The translations under genes and the position numbers were made by a program. Positions 1,129 to 33,330 of a stretch of 34,301 nt of DNA are shown here, piece after piece. The DNA is from Richelia intracellularis (GTDB lineage: Bacteria; Cyanobacteriota; Cyanobacteriia; Cyanobacteriales; Nostocaceae), in NCBI GenBank assembly GCA_000613065.1, contig CBZS010000647.1, positions 1-34,301 of the forward strand, given 5' to 3'. The notes beneath the pieces are model-generated. The model searched no databases and was not told where the DNA came from. It worked only from the letters and a program-made list of their open reading frames with translations. How positions within the stretch are numbered: the first letter of the stretch is position 1; each line of letters begins with the position of its first letter.

Positions 1129-3322
1129 GCTGAGTTTTTGTCATCTTTTACCAGCATCAGCCAGAGAAACGAAACCAGTATTAAGCATCATTCAAACTCC
1201 TGAAAACACCCAGCAATGGCAAGGAATTAGTAAACGTTTACAAGCTGCTGGAGTGAAATATTGTGTTATTCCCCTGAATGCAATTAATAGTATGGCCGAT
1301 TGGGGCGATCGCAATATTGTATTTCTACCCAATGTGGAAACTTTAAGACCAAGTCAAGCCATCGCTTTAGAAGCATGGATGAGTAAAGGGGTAAGGGTAA
1401 TTGCTAGTGGTCCGACGGCTAGCTTATCTTCCCCTGGAGTCAGGGAATTAATGCAGTCTTTATTAGGTGGTTATTGGGGATTTAGTTTAGAACAGCCCCA
1501 AAACATAGCGCGAGCAGAGGTGAAAACACAGCAGTGGGCAAATGATAGGGGTTTATTTGGTAAAGTTAGCGGGGGTGTAATTATTCCTAATAAAGTTACA
1601 GGTGCAGCCGCCGTAGTTTGGAACTCCCAAAATAAAGCTCCGGTAGTTGCAACAGAACGCTCGACATTTTTAGGATAGCGATGGGGGTGGATAAGCTAGC
1701 ACCGGTGGATTTGGATACTGCTTGGTTACAAGCTACTCTCAAACGGAATGAAATTGGGGGTCGAAGTTTTCCCAGGAGAGTTGCTGGTGCTAATAATAAA
1801 TATTCTCAGCAGTTAGCAACTTTAGCTACTTCATCAAAGCCAAGCTCTAATCTAGAGAAACGGCAACCTAGGGTTGATAAAATTACTGATACGAATAGCA
1901 AAAAAAAGTAACTTACCACTATCTTCAAAACGTAGGCGTAGCATATCACCAAAAAGAACAGCCGTAGCCCCTATCTCTGCATCTAAATCCCCATATAAAT
2001 CGGATCAAGCGATCGATAAATTACAAGAAAGGGTAGGTTTGGATGTAATTCCTAATTCTCGAGCCCCCATTAGTTCTAAAGAATTATTTACCCTGCAATG
2101 GGAACTTAAAAATTTGATTGGCAGGGTAGAAAGTGCCCACCTACCAGCTTTAGCGAATAACTCTGCTGGAATCGCTGGAGATATCGGCAATAACCCCATA
2201 TATGCCAAGGCACAGCCAGTCAGGTTTGCATCGGTGAAAACCGAATTTATGTCATCCAACACTCAAAAGTCTTTATTCTGGGCAAAACAAGTAGCTAATA
2301 ATTTACCTCAATTAGTTGCCCGCAGACAGCATGCTCAAGCGCGACGACAGTGGGTTAAGGCAAAAATATCCCTACTCAGGAAATTTCCCCTAGATAAACG
2401 ATTAGCACAGCCAGAAATTCGGGCAATGTGGTTAGATCGGGGAACCATCGTCAAAGCGAAAAGTCAACAAGGATTAGCTAAGGTTTTTGATCGCATGGCT
2501 GAATCCGGGATTAACACCGTATTTTTTGAAACAGTTAATTCCAGTTACACCATTTATCCCAGTAAAGTTGCTAAGTTGCTCCCCAACAAAATCCACTAGT
2601 ACGTGCCTGGGACCCCCTAGCATCGGCTGTCAAACTGGGTAAAGCTAGGAGTATGGAAGTACACGCTTGGGTTTGGGTATTTGGCGCAGGTAATAGCAAA
2701 CAGAATGAATTACTGAATCTCCCTACAAGTTATCCAGGACCAGTACTTGCATTAAATCCCACTTGGGCAAACTGCGATCAGAAAGGTAATATTACCCCAT
2801 TAGGTCAAACTAAGCCATTTTTTGACCATGGCAACCCCCAAGTACAGAAGTATCTCCTTAATTTATATGAAGAGATTGTCACTCGGTATCAAGTGCATGG
2901 GTTGCAGTTAGATTACATTCGCTATCCTTTCCAAGATCCAGCCAGGGGAAGGGTATAGGGTTATGGAGCTGCATCTAGGTCTAAATTTAGACAATTAACA
3001 GGGCTAGATACGATTAATATTAGACCTAGGCAAAGGCAGATGTGGCAAAAATGGACAAAATTTCGTACTCAGCAAGTAGATAATTTTGTAGCTCAAGTTT
3101 CAGAAAGATTACGTAATAAACGTCCAAACCTGATTATCTCCGTCGCTGTGTTTCCCCTACCAAAAAAAGAGAGGATTTAAAAGCTGCAACAGGATTGGGA
3201 AGTGTGGGCAAAACGGGGTGATGTAGATATGATTGTCCCCATGACCTATGCTTTAGATACCATTGGTTTTCAGCGATTAGCTAAAGCTTGGGTAGCTGCA
3301 AGTAGATTAGGCTCTAGTTTCT

Positions 3323-3413
3323 GGCGTTGCATAAGTGCGGGATGAATTAGCATTTGAAACCATTGAGAAATCGTTAAAAATTTAGTAAAATCATGCAGCA
3401 TTTATGCAACGCC
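3323..3413 (+). repeat. 91-bp MITE, copy 1, with 8-bp target duplication
   Basis: The element starts GGCGTTGCATAA and ends TTATGCAACGCC, a perfect 12-bp terminal inverted repeat. It is flanked on both sides by TAGTTTCT (3315-3322 and 3414-3421), an 8-bp target-site duplication. Removing the element and one duplicate joins GSSF to LVPGIS in a single frame of the hydrolase gene, so this is a true insertion. Two other 91-bp copies lie at 21086 and 24211 in the opposite orientation. No coding capacity. Confidence 0.93.
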
Positions 3414-3752
3414 TAGTTTCTTAGTACCAGGAATTAGCCTACTTCCCTTGCCTACCTTGGGGGCGGTGGATCAAATCCAGTTGGTGAGAGATTTACCAGT
3501 CAATGGTTATGCCTTGTTTCCTACAGAGAACCTACACGGTGAGTTACAACAAGTTATTATCAGTACTCAAGGAATAGCTAATAACAAAAAAGAACCCATT
3601 GCTTATCGTCAGCCATTTGCTACCGCATCTATCCGCTATGCTAATTTCCAGAAAGAATGGCAATTGGTAGAACAAAAGCAAAAATAAAATGTATCTGCGA
3701 ATAAATTGTCAGATTTTAAAGCGAAAGCAAAGAGCCTAGAGAGTATTTTGAA

Positions 3753-5223: not shown

Positions 5224-6473
5224 GGGCACCTCGATTAATCAAGTCTTAGGTAATCTGAGGGGCTTCGAAGAACTACAAGAAAGTGAAGTTGGGCCAAAAA
5301 TAGCTCAACCGGAACTATTTATAGTTGAAATCTGGCTCAGTAGAGCCAATTTAGAACCAATTATCCCACAGCTTTAGGATTTTTATTCTCCCAAAATCCA
5401 TAACGTTTGAAGTTGTAGACTAAATTATTCACTCCAATAGTCGCCTTGACTGACTCCTTACCAATGGAACCCATTAACTTGCTTCCCATTTCATTAACCC
5501 AGTGACCAAAAACCTGTTTCACCTTAGCTTTGACTTGAGAACGCTCTCGATAATCTTCTTTTTGTTTTGCAGTCAATGGATGATTGTGGTAGGCTCGTTC
5601 ATGAATGTGACTGAGGAATTGTAAAATCTGTAGAATCCATTCAATAGATTCACTACGATAGGCAGTATCTGCCCAAACCTCTTCCCCCTGGTTTTGCTCA
5701 TCCAACAGTGCCCCTAACACTTGGGAATCATGCACTGAGGCATCCGTGACTTGATAGCGACGAATAAAACCATACTCCACATCGATACTGATGTGGTTTT
5801 TATAACCAAAGGAACTCTGACCATTCTTTTTTCTCCAGGGATCATCTGTATCCTTCTAGGACAAGCGTTGATACTTTTGCTGCCAACTTTCGGGAATTTC
5901 TTCTAGGGCAAGTTTTTGCTTCTCTTCCTTAGTATTATGCTGCTTGGGAACTGGAATCAATGTGCCATCTACTATTTGACCCTCCTTAGCTTGGTAGCCT
6001 TGATGTCTCAGGTCGTTATCAAATTGCTCAAACAGTTCTTTAATAAGACCCTGCTGCTTCAACTGCTGCCGAAAGAACCAAACTGTAGTTGCATCTGGTA
6101 CTGGTTCTGCTAGCCCCAAGCCCAAAAATATCATGAACGATAGTCGGTTATTGACCTGGTAGTCCAGTTCTTCATCACTGATGTAGTACAGTTGTTGCAG
6201 CACAAGCATTTTGAAGATGACTATTGCATCTATGGGCTTTCGCCCAGCATTATTTTTTCTAGCCTTGTCATGCACTTGTTCTAAAATCGGACGAAATTAT
6301 GACCACGGCATGGTCTCGTCTAACTTCATCAACAGGGTCTTCTTGCTTTCTAACTTCTGGTATCCCTGTTCAAGTTCCCCGACTGTTTTTTATTCCATGG
6401 CGATTCAACCCCAGCTTCTGCTCTCCCTATACTCTCATCTCGCGAGCTACTTGCTCCATTTCTCGAGGTGCCC
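5224..6473 (-). mobile_element. IS5-family element (IS5 subgroup type), copy 1, inactive
   Basis: The left end GGGCACCTCGA (5224-5234) is the inverse of TCGAGGTGCCC (ending 6473), giving an element of about 1250 bp with the transposase on the minus strand. A second copy, aligned over its full length, lies at 25147-26408, so both boundaries are supported by comparison. I see no clear target duplication. The transposase is broken (see the pseudogene entry). Confidence 0.8.
5361..6398 (-). pseudogene. IS5-family DDE transposase (copy 1), two nonsense codons
   Basis: Read on the minus strand the protein has the IS5 pattern: an N-terminal DUF772-like part (LDETMPW, then KPIDAIVIFKMLVLQQLY, PDATTVWFFRQQL) and the DDE domain (VDGTLIPVP, FGYKNHISIDVEY, VTDASVHDSQ, VWADTAYRS). 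The C-terminus NLVYNFKRYGF is intact. An in-frame TAA at 6297-6299 replaces the expected Glu codon of WSEFRPILEQ. A TAG near 5858 replaces the Glu codon that copy 2 still has in SEKDTD. The extreme N-terminus near 6380-6398 is also out of frame. The protein cannot be made as one chain. Confidence 0.85.
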
Positions 6474-6597
6474 TATTCTAACTAACCCCGGACATATAGC
6501 CGACAATGATACCCTTTTTGTCGGAACTATCCGTACAACTTTCCGTTTTTAGACAATATGAATTTTCGGTCAGAAAGAAGGAAATCTACTCTGACTA

Positions 6598-9272: not shown

Positions 9273-9666
9273 AACTGGCAATATGTATGTATATTGCAAA
9301 ATAATCTCAGCAGTTTAAAGGATGACCCCAAATAAAAATCATCAGATACCGGAACAGTTTGTATTTGGACAGGTAAAGTCATCTCCAGTTGTAGTCAATT
9401 TAAAAGGAGAGCCTGTAACATCGGATGCAGAGTTAACATTAATTGCGGAACTAGACAGAAAAAGAGAAATAACATCACGATTTGCAAGATGTTTCAAAGA
9501 TTACCGAGACCCCAATAAAGTTTTATATCCAGTTCATAACTTAATTGCACAAAGCAAAGGATATATATATGGCTTAATCATTGGGTATGAAGAAATAAAA
9601 AATGATCATGAAATTCTACGTCACGATCCAATATTCGCACTTGCGGTAGGAAAGCTTATTCACTTA

Positions 9667-10587
9667 GAGGATGTTTTAAAAGTCGAAGTGAGTTACAAAT
9701 CATGCAAGTCCCCTGACCATGATACGTATCATTGCAATATAAATTAAAGTCTCAGAAGTTTCAGGTAACCTTTGATAGTCCTTACTTAATCTTCTACACC
9801 AATTGAGCCACCCGAAAGTTAGTTCTACAACCCAACGTTTTAGTAAAAGGGTAAAACCCTTGTTTCCTAAGGGTCTGAGAACCACTTCCACAATCCAACG
9901 AAAAACATCGATTATCCAGTGGGCAAAATCTTACCCCCGATATCCTCCATCCATCCAGATAGTGTGCAGTCTTTTAACTTTATCTTTCATCTGATAAACC
10001 TGCCAGAACGTGCACGTTTAGTTTAGCCCCTGCACGTTCTGGCACACTTGCAGAAGTAACCAAGACTCGCAAAACTAGCCCTAACAAGTCAACCGTAATA
10101 AATAGCTTACGTCCATGTATTTGTTTTCCTGCCTCGAAACCAACATTCGTACAAATCATGGTTGCGGTTTCAACTGATTGACTATCAAAGCCTACTTCCC
10201 ATGGACTTTGTTCTCGACTGGCTGCTACCCGAACCCATTGATATAGTTTGTCATGAACCAGAAGCCAAGTACGGTCTTTGCCCCATCTTCTGAAATAGCC
10301 ATAGACTGTAGACCAAGGTGGTAAATCTCCTGGTAATGCCCGTCATGTTCATCCTTGACACAGTACGTATAAAATCGCGTTTACTACTGGGTACATACAT
10401 GTTGTTGTACGTGGACGACCACCTGGTTTTGCCTCTGGTAACAGCTGTGGGATTAACTCCCACTGTTCCCACGTTAAATTGCTAGGATAATTCTTAGTCA
10501 TTTGCTCACGGGGTGCTGTTTTCTATAATTCTCAGCATATGCCTTGTGAGCTTTTTTATGATACCTCCCACCTTTTAAAACATCCTC
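9667..10587 (-). mobile_element. 920-bp IS5-family element, copy 1, inserted in IS1380
   Basis: The ends are GAGGATGTTTTAAAAG (9667) and CTTTTAAAACATCCTC (ending 10587), a perfect 16-bp inverted repeat. TTA flanks both sides (9664-9666 and 10588-10590), a 3-bp target duplication. Comparison with the uninterrupted IS1380 copy 2 around 22712 confirms the site. Two further copies, at 19232 and 32060, also have TTA flanks. Confidence 0.93.
9700..10501 (-). pseudogene. IS5-family (DUF4096-type) transposase of the 920-bp IS, copy 1
   Basis: Minus strand. The C-terminal piece [20 protein letters not shown] is in one frame at 9700-9891. The start near 10501 corresponds to MTKNYPSN in copy 2. The middle is spread over several frames with stops. 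Comparison with the other two copies shows the same gene order and confirms this is a dead transposase. Confidence 0.8.
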
Positions 10588-11070
10588 TTAGAACAAGAAT
10601 TAACGACTTTGGCGGGGAAAATCACCTTAAATCGTCTCGAACATTGTCCAGAAGACGTATCTTCAATAAAAAATAGTCGGTATTATCGTATTGACTATGA
10701 TGCTAAGGCGATAAAAACACTTTTAGTTGAGCTATTTTTAGAATCTTATCATCAGCCACCGCGACAGATAATAAATTTAGATGTGACGGATGATTTAGTT
10801 CATGCTCATCAAGAAGAAACATTCTTTAATCCGTATTACAAAGGATATTGTTATGATCCCCTTTATATTTTTTGTGGTAAACATTTACTTGCTGCAAAAC
10901 TTCGTGCATCCAACTTAGACCCGGCAGCATCGGGGTTAGAAGAATTACAAAGAGTAATAAAAATAATACGCTGTCTATGGAAAAAGGTGAAAATTATTAT
11001 CCGTGGGGATAGTCCTTATTCCAGAGAAGAGATAATGGCTTGGTTTGAAGATGAAACTGATATAGCGCTC

Positions 11071-19206: not shown

Positions 19207-19231
19207 TCTTAAATCTTATTAAATATTCTTA

Positions 19232-20149
19232 GAGGATGTTTTAAAAGTCGAAGTGAGTTACAAATCATGTAAGTAGCCTGACCATGATACGTATCATTGC
19301 AATATAGATTAAAATCTCAGAAGTTTCAGGTAGCCTTTCATAGTCCTTACTTAATCTTCTACACCAATTGAGCCACCCGAAAGTTCGTTGTACAACCCAA
19401 GGTTTTGGTAAAAGGGTAAAAACCTTCTTTTCTAAGGGTTTGAGAACCACTTCCACAATCCAACGAAAAACATCGATTATCCAGTGGGCAAAATCTTACC
19501 CCCGATATCCTCCATCCATCCAGATAGTGTGCAGTCTTTTAACTTTATCTTTCATCTGATAAACCTGCCATAACGTGCACGTTTAGTTTAGCCCCTGCAG
19601 GTTCTGGCACACTTGCAGAAGTAACCAAGACTCGCAAAACTAGCCCTAACAAGTCAACCGTAATAAATTGCTTACGTCCATGTATTTGTTTTCCTGGGTC
19701 GAAACCAACATCCGTATAAATCATGGTTGCGGTTTCAACTCATTGGCTATCAAACGCTGCTTCCTATGGACTTGGTTCTCGACTGGCTGCTACCCGAACC
19801 CATTGATATAGTTTGTCATGAACCAGAAGCCAAGTACGGTCTTTGCCCCATCTTCTGAAATAGCCATAGAGTGTAGACCAAAGTGGTAAATCTCCTGGTA
19901 ATGCCCGCCATGTACATCCTTGACACAGTAGGTATAAAATCGCGTTTACTACTACGTACAGACCTCTTGTACGTGGACGACAACCTAGTTTTGCCTCTGG
20001 AAACAGCTCTGGGATTAACTCCCACTGTTCCCATGTTAAATTGCTAGGATAATTCTTAGTCATTTGCTCACGGGGTGCTGTTTTCTATAATTCTCAGCAT
20101 ATGCCTTGTGAGCTTTTTTATGATACATCCCACCTTTTAAAACATCCTC
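19232..20149 (-). mobile_element. 920-bp IS5-family element, copy 2, between radA and rpaB
   Basis: The ends are GAGGATGTTTTAAAAG and its inverse at 20149, with TTA duplicated at 19229-19231 and 20150-20152. The length is 918 bp. It sits in the divergent radA-rpaB promoter region, 25 bases before radA and 148 before rpaB. Its transposase is broken. Confidence 0.93.
19265..20063 (-). pseudogene. IS5-family transposase of the 920-bp IS, copy 2
   Basis: The best-preserved of the three copies. It reads MTKNYPSNLTWEQWELIPEL from 20063, then CQGCTWRALPGDLPLWSTLY and YFRRWGKDRTWLLVHDKLYQW. A Trp codon (TGG in copy 3) is TAG after SREPSP at 19764-19766. Further on there is another stop after AAFDSQ and frame changes. 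The C-terminus [20 protein letters not shown] is intact at 19265-19456. The family has an N-terminal DUF4096 domain and a DDE domain. Not functional. Confidence 0.84.
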
Positions 20150-20280
20150 TTAATTGTTCCTTAATTTTTACCAGTTGTAAAAGTCTAATAATAGTAGTAG
20201 TTGTGGCGTTTTTTCAATGTATTAATGGAATGATATCTTAATATTATGATATTAAAAATTTATCATGAAAAATTTTAGTT

Positions 20281-21085: not shown

Positions 21086-21176
21086 GGCGTTGCATAATAG
21101 AGGGATTATTTCACGAAATTTTCAACGATTTCTCAATGGTTTCAAACGCTAATTCATCCCGCACTTATGCAACGCC
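21086..21176 (-). repeat. 91-bp MITE, copy 2
   Basis: Bounded by GGCGTTGCATAA and TTATGCAACGCC, exactly 91 bp, in the opposite orientation to copy 1. The core TTTCTCAATGGTTTCAAA is shared with the other copies. No 8-bp duplication is seen here, though ATTCCTAATT occurs on both sides a few bases out. It lies between the rpaB stop and the CCB2 start. Confidence 0.9.
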
Positions 21177-24075: not shown

Positions 24076-24210
24076 TATTTAATTGTGATTAATCGGTAGG
24101 TGTTTCTACAAAAGTGAGATAATGCTAATTTCTTTACCTTCTGTATCACTGTAATCACCTACAATATGCTGCCCGTAGTAAGGCTACAGTCAGGCTATAC
24201 TTAGAATTGT
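24076..24210. other. Unassigned short segment between IS630 and MITE 3
   Basis: 135 bases. The minus strand reads YYGQHIVGDYSDTEGKEISI between stops; I do not recognise it. It might be a piece of the gene broken by these insertions. Confidence 0.35.
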
Positions 24211-24301
24211 GGCGTTGCATAAGTGCGGGATAATTTAACTAAATTTTCAACGATTTCTCAATGGATTCAAACGCTAATTCATACCGCACTTATGCAACGC
24301 C
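24211..24301 (-). repeat. 91-bp MITE, copy 3
   Basis: The best terminal repeats of the three copies: GGCGTTGCATAAGTGCGG at the left and its inverse (18 bp) at the right. Flanks AGAATTGT (24203-24210) and ACAATTGT (24302-24309) differ at one of eight bases, fitting an 8-bp target duplication. Confidence 0.9.
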
Positions 24302-24348
24302 ACAATTGTTAGTGAGAATAAGGTTTGAGCTGAAGTTTCCAACCGCAT

Positions 24349-25146: not shown

Positions 25147-26408
25147 GGGCTCCTCGATTAATCAAGTCTTAGGTTATCTCAGGGGGTTCGAAGAACTACA
25201 ATAAAGTGAAGTTGGGCAAAAAATAGCTCAACCGGAAGGAACCATTTCTAGTTGAAATCTGACTAAATAGAGCCAATTTAGACGCTATTATCCCACAGCT
25301 TTAGGATTTTTATTCTCCCAAAATCCATAACGTTTAAAGTTGTACACTAAATTCTTCACTCCAATAGTTGCTTTGACTGACTGCTTACCAATGGAACCCA
25401 TTAACTTGCCTCCCATTTCATTAACCCAGTGACCAAAAACGTGTTCGACCTTAGGTCTGACTTGAGAACGCTCTGGATTATCTTCTTTGTGTTTTGCAGT
25501 CAATGGATGATTGCCGTAGGCTCGTTCATGAATGTGACTGAGGAATTGTAAAATCTGTAGAATCCATTCAATAGATTCACTACCATAGCCAGTATCTGCC
25601 CAAACCTCTTCTCCCTGCTTTTGGTCATCCAACAGTGCCCCTAACATTTGACAATCATGCACTGAGGCATCCGTTAGTTGATACCGACGAATAAAAACGT
25701 ACTCCACATCAGTATCGATGTGGTTTTTATAACCAAAGGAACTCTGACCATTCTTTTTTGTCCAGGGAGCATCGGTATCCTTCTCGGACAAGCGATGAGG
25801 CTTTTGCTGCCAACTTTCGGGAATTTCTCATTAGGCAAGTTTTGGCTTCTCTTCCTTAGTATTATGCTCCTTGGGAACTGGAATCAGTGTGGCATCTACT
25901 ATTTGACCCCCCTTAGCTTGTTAGCCTTGGTCTCTCAGGTCGCTATCAAATTAATTGCTCAAACAGTTCTTCAATAAGACCCTGCTGCTTCAACTGCTGC
26001 CGAAATAACCAAACTGTAGTTGCATCTGGTACTGGTTCTGCTAGCCCCAAGCCCAAAAATCTCATGAACGATAGTCGGTCATTGAGCTGGTACTCCAGTT
26101 CTTCATCACTCATGTTATGTTGTACAGTTGTTGCAGCACAAGCATTTTGAACATGACTATTGCATCTATGGACTTTCGCCCAGCATTATTTTTTCTGGGC
26201 TTATCATGCACTTGTTCTAAAATCGGACGAATTTATGACCACGGCAGCGTCTCGTCTAACTTCATCAACAGGGTCTTCTTGCTTTCTAACTTCTGGTCTC
26301 GCTGTTCAAGTTCCCCGACTTTTTTTATTCCATGGCGATTCAACCCCAGGTTCTGCTCTCCCTATACTCTCATCTCGCGAGCTACTTGCTCAATTTTTCG
26401 AGGTGCCC
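25147..26408 (-). mobile_element. IS5-family element (IS5 subgroup type), copy 2, inactive
   Basis: The left end GGGCTCCTCGA (one change from copy 1) and right end TCGAGGTGCCC bound 1262 bp aligned with copy 1 over the whole length. The different outer flanks (DUF456 side here, rbp side there) confirm the boundaries. No clear target duplication. Confidence 0.8.
25288..26330 (-). pseudogene. IS5-family DDE transposase (copy 2), degraded
   Basis: The C-terminal DDE part (25288-25791) is in one frame: SEKDTDAPWTKKNGQSSFGY, NHIDTDVEYVFIRRYQLTDA, VWADTGYGSESIEWILQ and NLVYNFKRYGF. The N-terminal part is broken by frameshifts near 25830 and 25955, a 5-base insertion near 26115 and a TAA at 26233-26235. 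That TAA is at the same codon as the stop in copy 1, suggesting an inherited lesion. Dead. Confidence 0.83.
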
Positions 26409-27189
26409 TATTGTTGTTGCTCTAGAAGGCAATAATATTTGTACGAATTATACTGTGAAATATAAGCTAGCACTAGCAATAAAAATGATTAAAAAGAATG
26501 TGAGTATGCTCGTTCTATATTTCATAATTAGAGCTGTTAAAGCAAAGCCAAAAGGTATAAAAATATTATTGATCTAATATTTTAGAACTGTAGGATGACG
26601 GAATGCACGAGACAAGTCTGTCATATCTTAAATTAAATTAGGTGAAGGATAAAAAAAAAAGAATGTCGCTAAAATAACAAAAGAGATACTATGAATAACA
26701 AAAAAAGGTACATTTTTGTTCAAACATCTATATAGTTACTGTGTTGAAAATTTTATGATTTTTTTTGTTGATTCATAGAATTATCGATTTTATTTAAGCA
26801 TGATAAATTAATTATATTGATAATAAATAAATAATATATTTTTTTTTTTGCCTGCCAATTAATATTATGCAAACATATAATTAAACTCTAAATCAAATTT
26901 TGAACTTTATATATACAGAGTTACGGATACTTGTACTACCATGTTGAAGTTTAAATTTACAGATACGTATATATTAAGATTCGAAAAATAAAGATCTTTC
27001 TTGAGGTACTTTATTGTTTCTTTATCAAATATTGATAGCAAATTCAAGAAAAGCCTGGAATGGTTCGAAATCCATTCAAGGTAGATCAGATAAATTAGAT
27101 AATATTTGCTGGAAAATAATTTAAAGAATTCGCTGATTAGATACCATTAGCCTTGCTATATAATACTAGGCAAACGTAATAGTGAGGAA
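26409..27189. other. Very AT-rich gap with no recognisable gene
   Basis: 781 bases with long A and T runs (for example near 26650 and 26840). Short open frames exist but start inside the IS end or lack family resemblance. The last 60 bases precede the next gene, with GAGGAA just before its GTG. Possibly decayed DNA or a promoter-rich spacer. Confidence 0.5.
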
Positions 27190-30968: not shown

Positions 30969-32059
30969 ATGGTCTCTCTGACAAGAAGGCTTGCGCCTAC
31001 GGGTTTCAAATCTTCAAAACCAAAGATTAAAAGCTCAAAAAATTTGAGTATAGCCCATGCCACTGCATTGACAGAAAAAATGTTATTAGTTTTGAGTGAG
31101 ATAGAAGACCCACCTGTGGAAAGAACCCGTGTCGATTTATTAACAGATATTTTAATCATTGGAATACTATCATTGATTGGAGGAGGTAAGGGATGGGAGA
31201 ACATGAAAATGATAGATTGAGTAAATACGACTGGTTGAAGCAGTTTTTAGCTTTACCAGAGGACATCCCAAGTGGACATACCTTTGGACGGGTGTTTGAA
31301 CCCATTAACCCAAAAGTATTTGAGCGATGCTTTCGACATTGGGTAGAATCAATAGTTGAAGCCCCAGGAGCACAGGTAATTCCCATTGATGGTAAGACCC
31401 TCAAAGGTTCCTATGATAGAGAACAGGGTAAATCAGCGTTACATCTAGTTAGTGCATGTTCGATTTATCTTCTTGTTTTACTTGTCCTAAAACAAGACGA
31501 TAAATCGAATGAAATTACAGCAATCCCTGCATTATTGGAATTATTAGACATGGCTGGATGTATTATTACCATTGATCCCATGGGTACGCAAACAGCAATT
31601 GCATCCTAAATATTTAATGCAAAAGCAGATTATGTTTTAGGACTCAAAGGTAATCATCCTACACTTTACGGACAAGTGAAAAATGGGTTTGAGCAACAGT
31701 TATCTCAAGGCTTTAAAGGTATTATCCATAGTTATGATAAACGGGTAGAGAAAGGTCATCATCCTACTGAAAAACGTCAAATTTGGTGTGTTCCTATTTC
31801 TCAACAGCAAACTTTGCATAACCAAGACAATTGGGTTGGTCTTAAATGGGTTGTCATGGTTGTGCGGATACCACATCTTTGGAATCAAACAACCCGTGAA
31901 GATCAGTTTTATCTAACTAGTTTAAATTGTGATCCTCGTAACTTAGGACAAGTGATTCGTCTTCATTGAGGAGTGGGAAATGGGTTGCATTGGACTTTAG
32001 ATGTCACTTTTTATGAAAATGCTTGTCGTGTCCGTACTGGTCATGCTCCACAAAACTTA

Positions 32060-32984
32060 GAGGATGTTTTTAAAGGTGGGAGGTATCATAAAAAAGCTCA
32101 CAAGGCATATGCTGAGAATTATAGAAAACAGCACCCCGTGAGCAAATGACTAAGAATTATCCTAGCAATTTAACGTGGGAACAGTGGGAGTTAATCACAC
32201 AGCTGTTTCCAGAGGCAAAACCAGGTGGTCGTCCACGTACAACAACATGTATGTACCCAGTAGTAAACGCGATTTTATACGTACTGTGTCAAGGATGAAC
32301 ATGGTGGGCATTACCAGGAGATTTACCACCTTGGTCTACAGTCTATGGCTATTTATTTCAGAAGATGGGGCAAAGACCGTACTTGGCTTCAGGTTCATGA
32401 CAAACTATATCAATGGATTCGGGTAGGAGCCAGTCGAGAACCAAGTCCATGGGAAGCAGCCTTTGATAGCCAATCAGTTGAAACCGCAACCATGATTTGT
32501 ACGAATGTTGGTTTCGAGGCAGGAAAACAAATACATGGACGTAAGGGATTTATTACGGTTGACTTGTTAGGGCTAGTTTTGCGAGTCTTGGTTACTTCTG
32601 CAAGTGTGCCAGAACCTGCAGGGGCTAAACTAAACGTGCACCTTCTGGCAGGTTTATCAGATGAAAGATAAAGTTAAAAGACTGCACACTATCTGAGTGG
32701 ATGGAGGATATCGGGGGTCAGATTTTGCCCACTGGATAATCGATGTTTTTCGTTGTATTGTGGAAGTGGTTCTCAGACCCTTAGAAAACAAGGGTTTTAC
32801 CCTTTTACCAAAACCTTGGGTTGTATAACTAACTTTCGGGTGGCTCAATTGGTGTAGAAGATTAAGTAAGGACTATGAAAGGCTACCTGAAACTTCTGAG
32901 ACTTTAATTTATATTGCAATGATACGTATCATGGTCAGGGGACTTGCATGATTTGTAACTTACTTCGACTTTTAAAACATCCTC
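32060..32984 (+). mobile_element. 920-bp IS5-family element, copy 3, inserted in ISAs1
   Basis: The left end is GAGGATGTTTTTAAAGG and the right end is CTTTTAAAACATCCTC, with TTA at 32057-32059 and 32985-32987. It is 925 bp and in the opposite orientation to copies 1 and 2. Removing it with one TTA joins QNL to ALL in frame in the ISAs1 transposase. Confidence 0.93.
32146..32951 (+). pseudogene. IS5-family transposase of the 920-bp IS, copy 3
   Basis: It begins at ATG 32146 with MTKNYPSNLTWEQWELITQL. A Cys codon has become TGA after VLCQG at about 32297, and a frameshift lies near 32350. The frame then reads FRRWGKDRTWLQVHDKLYQW, REPSPWEAAFDSQSVETATM and QIHGRKGFITVDLLGLVLRV up to a stop after GLSDER. 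The C-terminal piece, with one more stop after KPWVV, is [20 protein letters not shown] and ends at TGA 32949-32951. Confidence 0.83.
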
Positions 32985-33330
32985 TTAGCACTTCTGGGGC
33001 GAATAGCTTTTAATGCTTTAAACCTAGAGCAATCTTTGAAACGTAGTAATCGCCAAAAATCTAATGGAGCTGCTATGGATAATAATTATATGCTGACTGT
33101 TCTTACTGCTTGTTTATCCCAACATGATGATGAGACCTCTCAACCCGCTTGTCAATAGAATTTGGGTGCGACTCTTTTGGTAGTAGGGAGTATGATATAA
33201 GAAGAATAAATTACAAGTCAACCACAGTAGTATTTACAGCCAATAATCTACTTGATGGAATTGGCTTGTAAAAAGTGAAAAAACAGGAACAGTTCCACAC
33301 CCTATGCAAGGATCTACATAAAATCAAGGT

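Follow-up and report, generated by a model that had tools for sequence, protein, structure and literature searches.

A 91-bp MITE family with 8-bp target duplications and an IS1-family element with matching ends in Richelia intracellularis

The 91-bp repeats of Richelia intracellularis are very probably MITEs that were mobilised in trans by an IS1-family transposase, the MITE and an IS1-family element of about 755 bp having spread at about the same time. The MITE is a non-autonomous element; its terminal inverted repeats of about 23 bp consist of two blocks, GGCGTTGC and GGGATGA, which flank 7 to 8 variable bases. An IS1-family transposase would produce the 8-bp target duplications as it moved the MITE in trans, and both elements would have multiplied in the genome in the same period. 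Most likely, the MITEs were moved by an IS1-type element whose copies examined all carry the same disabling mutation; the helper transposase, which probably acted in trans, would then come from a copy that has since been lost or is absent from the draft assembly.

On the usual view, a bacterium that becomes a symbiont sees its mobile DNA first multiply and later die out, and here a hitchhiker and its likely partner are both numerous enough for dating. Since the copies of the partner share one nonsense mutation, it becomes directly testable whether a non-autonomous element can outrun and outlive its transposase. The stem "transpos" is absent from the main text, as far as it is available, of two papers on diatom symbionts (PMC12596568, PMC12903740). 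The 91-bp family also offers a searchable entry for the annotation of Nostocales genomes, and repeats of this kind can split genes and break assemblies.

The 91-bp copies in the window and across the genome

The window, which is the whole stretch of 34,301 nucleotides that was analysed, contains three copies of exactly 91 bp, each starting at both ends with GGCGTTGCATAA. Copy 1 (3323 to 3413, minus strand relative to the family consensus) lies within a host pseudogene. Direct reading and joining of the flanks reveal a perfect 8-bp target duplication, TAGTTTCT, to its left (3315 to 3322, plus strand) and right (3414 to 3421, plus strand). Copy 2 (21086 to 21176, plus strand) is without a target duplication, its flanks matching at 1 of 8 positions, and its left end bears ATAATAGAGGGAT, a block that the IS1-family element of this genome also has at its left end. 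Copy 3 (24211 to 24301, plus strand) is flanked by AGAATTGT (24203 to 24210, plus strand) and ACAATTGT (24302 to 24309, plus strand), which were read directly and match at 7 of 8 positions. The inverted arms of 26 bases are 85% complementary in copy 1 and 81% in copy 2; in copy 3, a 39-base pair that runs through both ends is 87% complementary. Direct reading thus bears out an earlier sequence-only reading of this DNA, which had described three copies of exactly 91 bp with common termini and had named duplications for copies 1 and 3 only.

The insertion site of copy 1 is empty in relatives. When the flanks of copy 1 were joined and the host-gene stretch from 3101 to 3640 (plus strand) was compared with relatives, 38 loci were fetched and 37 gave a hit; in all 37, the protein match runs across the join, and any gap lies more than five residues away from it. 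The best named match to the interrupted protein, with 65% in the best segment, is from Calothrix rhizosoleniae SC01. The sequence-only reading had also held that removal of copy 1 repairs the host frame. The ungapped crossing of the junction agrees with this in part, but the insertion adds 91 + 8 = 99 bp, or 33 codons, and so brings stops (copy 1 has stops in all three forward frames) and no frameshift. The host gene is broken regardless, because a further in-frame stop lies upstream in its frame, and copy 1 is not its sole lesion.

The window also contains long repeats in pairs or triples of about 91 to 98% identity (5224 to 6477 with 25147 to 26412; 9663 to 10591, 19228 to 20155 and 32054 to 32988). 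These overlap transposase-like and mostly short frames, and the window is dense in apparent decayed insertion sequences.

A search of the window's own draft genome (5,488,377 bases in 857 contigs) yielded hundreds of further copies. Searched for at 91-bp spacing and with no more than one mismatch, the 8 + 8 terminal bases occur at 453 places, a number that is somewhat too high because some contigs are redundant; the reversed pattern occurs at none. A 41-base interior pattern with at most three mismatches was found at 576 places (control, 0), and exact 12-base ATAA ends on both sides, with spacing free within limits, at 77. A composite transposon formed by two MITEs 1762 bp apart, on contigs C160 and C281, was considered and rejected: the 2927 bp compared show no difference between the two contigs, and the two-MITE unit therefore reflects redundancy or a larger duplication.

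Copy length and duplications were examined in a sample of 400,180 bases, made up of 20 stretches of ten contigs and the window, with 80 to 102 bp allowed; the sample is non-random, being drawn from long contigs already returned by MITE or IS1 searches. Although length was left free within these bounds, 44 of the 45 copies are 91 bp long. Perfect 8-bp duplications flank 17 of the 45 and duplications with at most one mismatch flank 27, compared with 0.41 and 0.68 for shuffled flanks; the other 18, window copy 2 among them, have no 8-bp duplication within one mismatch. Of the other lengths, there is a single perfect duplication of 9 bp and none at 5 to 7 or 10 to 12 bp. A set of 116 distinct own copies gives a similar picture, with perfect 8-bp duplications in 48 and at most one mismatch in 72 (null, 0.50 and 1.13). 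Copies are depleted in long frames: once the flanks are joined, 12 of 45 sites lie in a frame of 150 codons or more, as against 58% of 2000 random positions. Short length, terminal inverted repeats, multiple copies and target-site duplications are thus all present, and the proposal of a MITE family that makes 8-bp duplications is well supported by the 453 places and by the 27 of 45 duplications.

The arms of the copies vary. In the 400-kb sample, 22 copies are mixed, 13 and 6 are symmetric, 2 carry an IS block and 1 is unassignable. Among the 116 own copies, a set in which symmetric ends are over-represented, its first query having been a symmetric copy, 11 private changes match between the two arms, compared with a permuted mean of 1.28 and a maximum of 7 in 2000 permutations. 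Matched arms are read here as one arm having served as the template for the other, as can happen when replication passes through a hairpin, the alternative being selection on the hairpin. It is very improbable that the copies are a structured RNA or a regulatory repeat of the REP/ERIC kind maintained by hairpin selection and not by mobility. The arms of some copies do pair perfectly, and the excess of arm-matching changes would fit such selection; however, arm-to-arm copying accounts for the matched arms without selection, and insertion is shown by the 8-bp duplications, by the empty site and by one MITE that lies within an IS1 copy (discussed below). Furthermore, Rfam gave no match in the window, and RNAalifold paired only the terminal repeats in an alignment of 40 relatives and returned no structure for 104 distinct own sequences. 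A structured RNA was rejected on the Rfam result and on the alignment of the relatives.

An IS1-family element with the same ends

The sequence-only reading had called for a search for a full insertion sequence with the same termini, and the genome does contain one, an IS1-family element of about 755 bp with end blocks and 8-bp duplications like those of the MITE. PF03400 (IS1 DDE) matches 53 places in the genome, 52 of them over the cut-off and some of them fragments. None of the listed IS1-family matches lies on the window's contig (C647), as expected from the earlier statement that the window holds no parent element. When 30 IS1 loci were fetched, 20 gave a copy inside a 740 to 765 bp filter (range 749 to 762 bp). 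Perfect 8-bp duplications flank 6 of these 20 and at least 7 of 8 positions match in 10, the other 10 being without an 8-bp duplication within one mismatch. The typical ends of the element are GGCGTTGCATAATAGAGGGATGAATTGAGG and GGCGTTGCATATTTGCGGGATGAATCAACC, and its blocks, typically ATAATAGA on the left and ATATTTGC on the right, are set within ends built like those of the MITE.

In size, in its imperfect inverted repeats and in its transposase, which combines a Zn-ribbon with the IS1 DDE domain, the element resembles the IS1 family. E. coli IS1 changes frame at a run of A followed by C, and a similar change, a −1 shift between two frames, is predicted from the sequence of the present element: a run of 8 to 9 A followed by C is found in 6 of 8 copies inspected. 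An IS1-type transposase and a size near 0.75 kb, with two putative frames that meet at the A-run, thus place the element in the family. Some relatives' IS1-family elements have one fused frame. The duplications of E. coli IS1 are mostly 9 bp, whereas 8 bp dominates in the elements of this genome.

The MITE has the partner's end blocks and its 8-bp duplication but carries no gene. As far as the two were compared, only the ends are shared, and thus the MITE is not a simple deletion product of the element. Within the genome, each kind of element can bear end blocks of the other: the left block of the IS is present in window copy 2, and a MITE-type block in the IS copies L073 and L098. In locus L090, a MITE is nested in an IS1 copy, and each has its own perfect 8-bp duplication; in L073, a MITE occupies the same IS site, and the IS end beyond it is missing. 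At two other loci (L082, 1393 to 1441; L098, 1088 to 1136), half a MITE ending after its 48th base adjoins an IS1 copy. The IS1 copies of these two loci are oppositely oriented, and the other half of the MITE is missing beyond the IS.

No intact IS1 copy was found in the genome assembly. Intact relatives of the element are present in other genomes. The MITE shares its ends with an IS1-family element of its own genome, with an intact transposase found only in relatives elsewhere. In relatives, a perfect 8-bp duplication surrounds an element with such ends at 11 of 29 loci, a count that depends on boundaries picked by a score favouring duplications. One intact relative is 98.7% identical to a gene on a Cylindrospermopsis curvispora plasmid that is annotated "IS1 family transposase".

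The transposases of two intact relatives bounded by these ends indicate which family is concerned. They score 267 and 254 bits with the NCBIfam IS1 equivalog NF033558 (cut-off 100) and 93 bits with PF03400 (cut-off 24.1), compared with 32 and 23 bits with the IS6 profile (cut-off 125) and, in one of the two, 25 bits with the ISL3 profile (cut-off 180). The elements that share the MITE's ends are therefore IS1-family and not IS6 or ISL3. The sequence-only reading had preferred an IS6-type parent with ISL3 as the alternative, and 8-bp duplications are indeed compatible with IS6 and with ISL3 according to the available text of PMC7986276 and PMC11448079, respectively. However, with transposases far above the IS1 cut-off and far below those of the other two families, and with a few longer duplications also present (a perfect 9 bp in 1 of the 116 own copies, a perfect 10 bp in 1 of 40 relatives), it is extremely improbable that the repeats are MITEs of an IS6-family or ISL3-family element, and this parentage was rejected on the transposase profiles of the two relatives.

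The shared TAG codon and the timing of the spread

All 37 distinct IS1 copies with a readable codon context have an in-frame TAG, which is codon 59 when counted in the L056 frame. (The count comes from 39 rows less L218, which is a MITE, and L008, which repeats L090. Matches on contigs C114, C153, C430, C471 and C573 reach the codon without TAG, each ending in a shifted frame, and in each case a second row that overlaps it there shows TAG.) Tyrosine occupies this codon in relatives such as L220, L226 and L233. As every readable copy shares the nonsense codon, the working transposase would come from a copy that the genome has since lost or that the draft does not include; an intact copy may lie inside an assembly gap. 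Like the MITE, the amber IS1 element would then have been amplified by a transposase acting in trans. In an IS1 element of another lineage (L231, genome G006), TAG stands at the same tyrosine codon, by coincidence or as a hot spot.

Alternatively, the TAG might be read through, for example by a suppressor tRNA, in which case IS1 would be active now or would have been formerly, and the MITE may still move. In favour of this, all 37 copies that could be read share the TAG while the copies multiplied, it is the sole stop in 13 of the 32 longest N-terminal matches, and the relative in G006 has it at the same codon. Against it, the other 19 of the 32 contain further stops, and substitutions by codon position are 68/68/37 before the A-run and 68/57/55 after it; this lack of a third-position excess is as expected under neutral decay. 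A single, non-exhaustive pattern search for a tRNA with a CTA anticodon gave 16 hits (reversed control, 28), none of them so called by ARAGORN. Readthrough is thus very improbable, and a transposase acting in trans is preferred.

Divergence from the consensus is similar for the two elements. The mean distance is 2.88% for 20 IS1 copies and 2.87% for the MITE interior (44 copies) over 42 of 45 columns, a comparison that is not like for like since three polymorphic columns were dropped for the MITE and none for IS1; with all 45 columns kept, the MITE figure is 5.05%. Between the two sides of the target duplication, 6.7% of sites differ; this figure comes from the 30 sampled copies that have no more than two mismatches, and the cut makes it too low. 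These clocks are compatible with one joint burst of IS1 and MITE, without proving one; the burst would now be over.

Known MITEs and relatives in other genomes

Nezha, a MITE reportedly hosted by Anabaena variabilis and Nostoc PCC 7120, can be likened to the present element by description only, not by sequence. It too is a cyanobacterial MITE, according to the available text of PMC10969869. Anabaena sp. 90, also of the Nostocales, has 147 complete or partial MITEs of 77 to 541 bp, 15 of them within disrupted frames; the accessible part of that report (PMC3542288) calls them type II and describes them as without evident similarity to the inverted repeats of the strain's own insertion sequences, whereas here an IS1-family element with matching ends exists. 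A 187-nt ISL3-linked MITE of Microcystis PCC 7806 has 8-nt direct repeats and, like the present MITE, a partner IS that shares its ends; it differs in those ends (GGCTCTTCG), in the IS family and in its 31 to 33 identical copies (PMC11448079, in the portion available). Within the accessible text of literature on cyanobacterial MITEs and IS1-family MITEs, including these three papers, there is no account of the 91-bp element; subscription papers fall mostly outside this scope, and an earlier description is possible. A literature search for four end sequences of the element returned no paper.

In a family sample of 192 genomes, 77 have the 91-bp pattern, one of them the own genome. Each of the other 76 holds 1 to 6 places, and some of the singletons are chance matches, as the reversed control matches one place in each of 12 genomes. 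The pattern is absent from the one other genome of the same genus in this sample. Forty relatives, hand-picked and thus non-random (G046, G081, G099 and G120, which looked unrelated, and G125 and G171, with another repeat type, were omitted), have a pairwise identity of about 79%. Perfect 8-bp duplications flank 17 of the 40 and duplications with at most one mismatch 21 (null, 0.42 and 0.99). Their usual form is asymmetric, with TGAATCATGGG at one end and ATAAATGCGGG at the other. Two relatives (L260, 139 to 253; L288, 1489 to 1603) have direct repeats of 10 bp, gttaattcca and ttaaaactct, and not of 8 bp.

An order-wide sample of 195 genomes gave matches in 27, of which 23 lie outside the family, and the reversed control matches in 13 genomes. 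Twenty of the elements were fetched. In 7 of them, from 5 genomes of 4 other families, the interior is shared more closely than in any of 2000 shuffles; L313 and L324 reached 1 in 2000, and 11 failed. The scores of these 7 are all lower than that of the weakest of the 40 family members, and a duplication within one mismatch flanks only 1 of them. Since the family and order searches fixed the length at 91 bp, they do not show that the full length is conserved in other genomes.

The element is also carried by 15 plasmid records from heterocystous cyanobacteria, nine of them predicted to be conjugative. The match spans in query and record are equal in length in 13 of the 15, some covering the query only partly. 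Carriage by phages was considered and rejected, as there was no match in phage records or, with one exact pattern, in viral_contigs.

A broader history is possible but rather unlikely. The MITE may be an ancient non-autonomous element whose interior and ends are under selection across several cyanobacterial families, normally at few copies per genome and partly on conjugative plasmids. It might then have exploded about a hundredfold in one diatom symbiont by way of an IS1 lineage that was itself already non-autonomous, as the shared amber codon would suggest, both parasites losing their engine together.

Elements of 91 bp with the same ends and an interior of CTTTGCG-type repeats, which represent another cargo, are present in G125, G171 and G214 (L314, 151 to 241).
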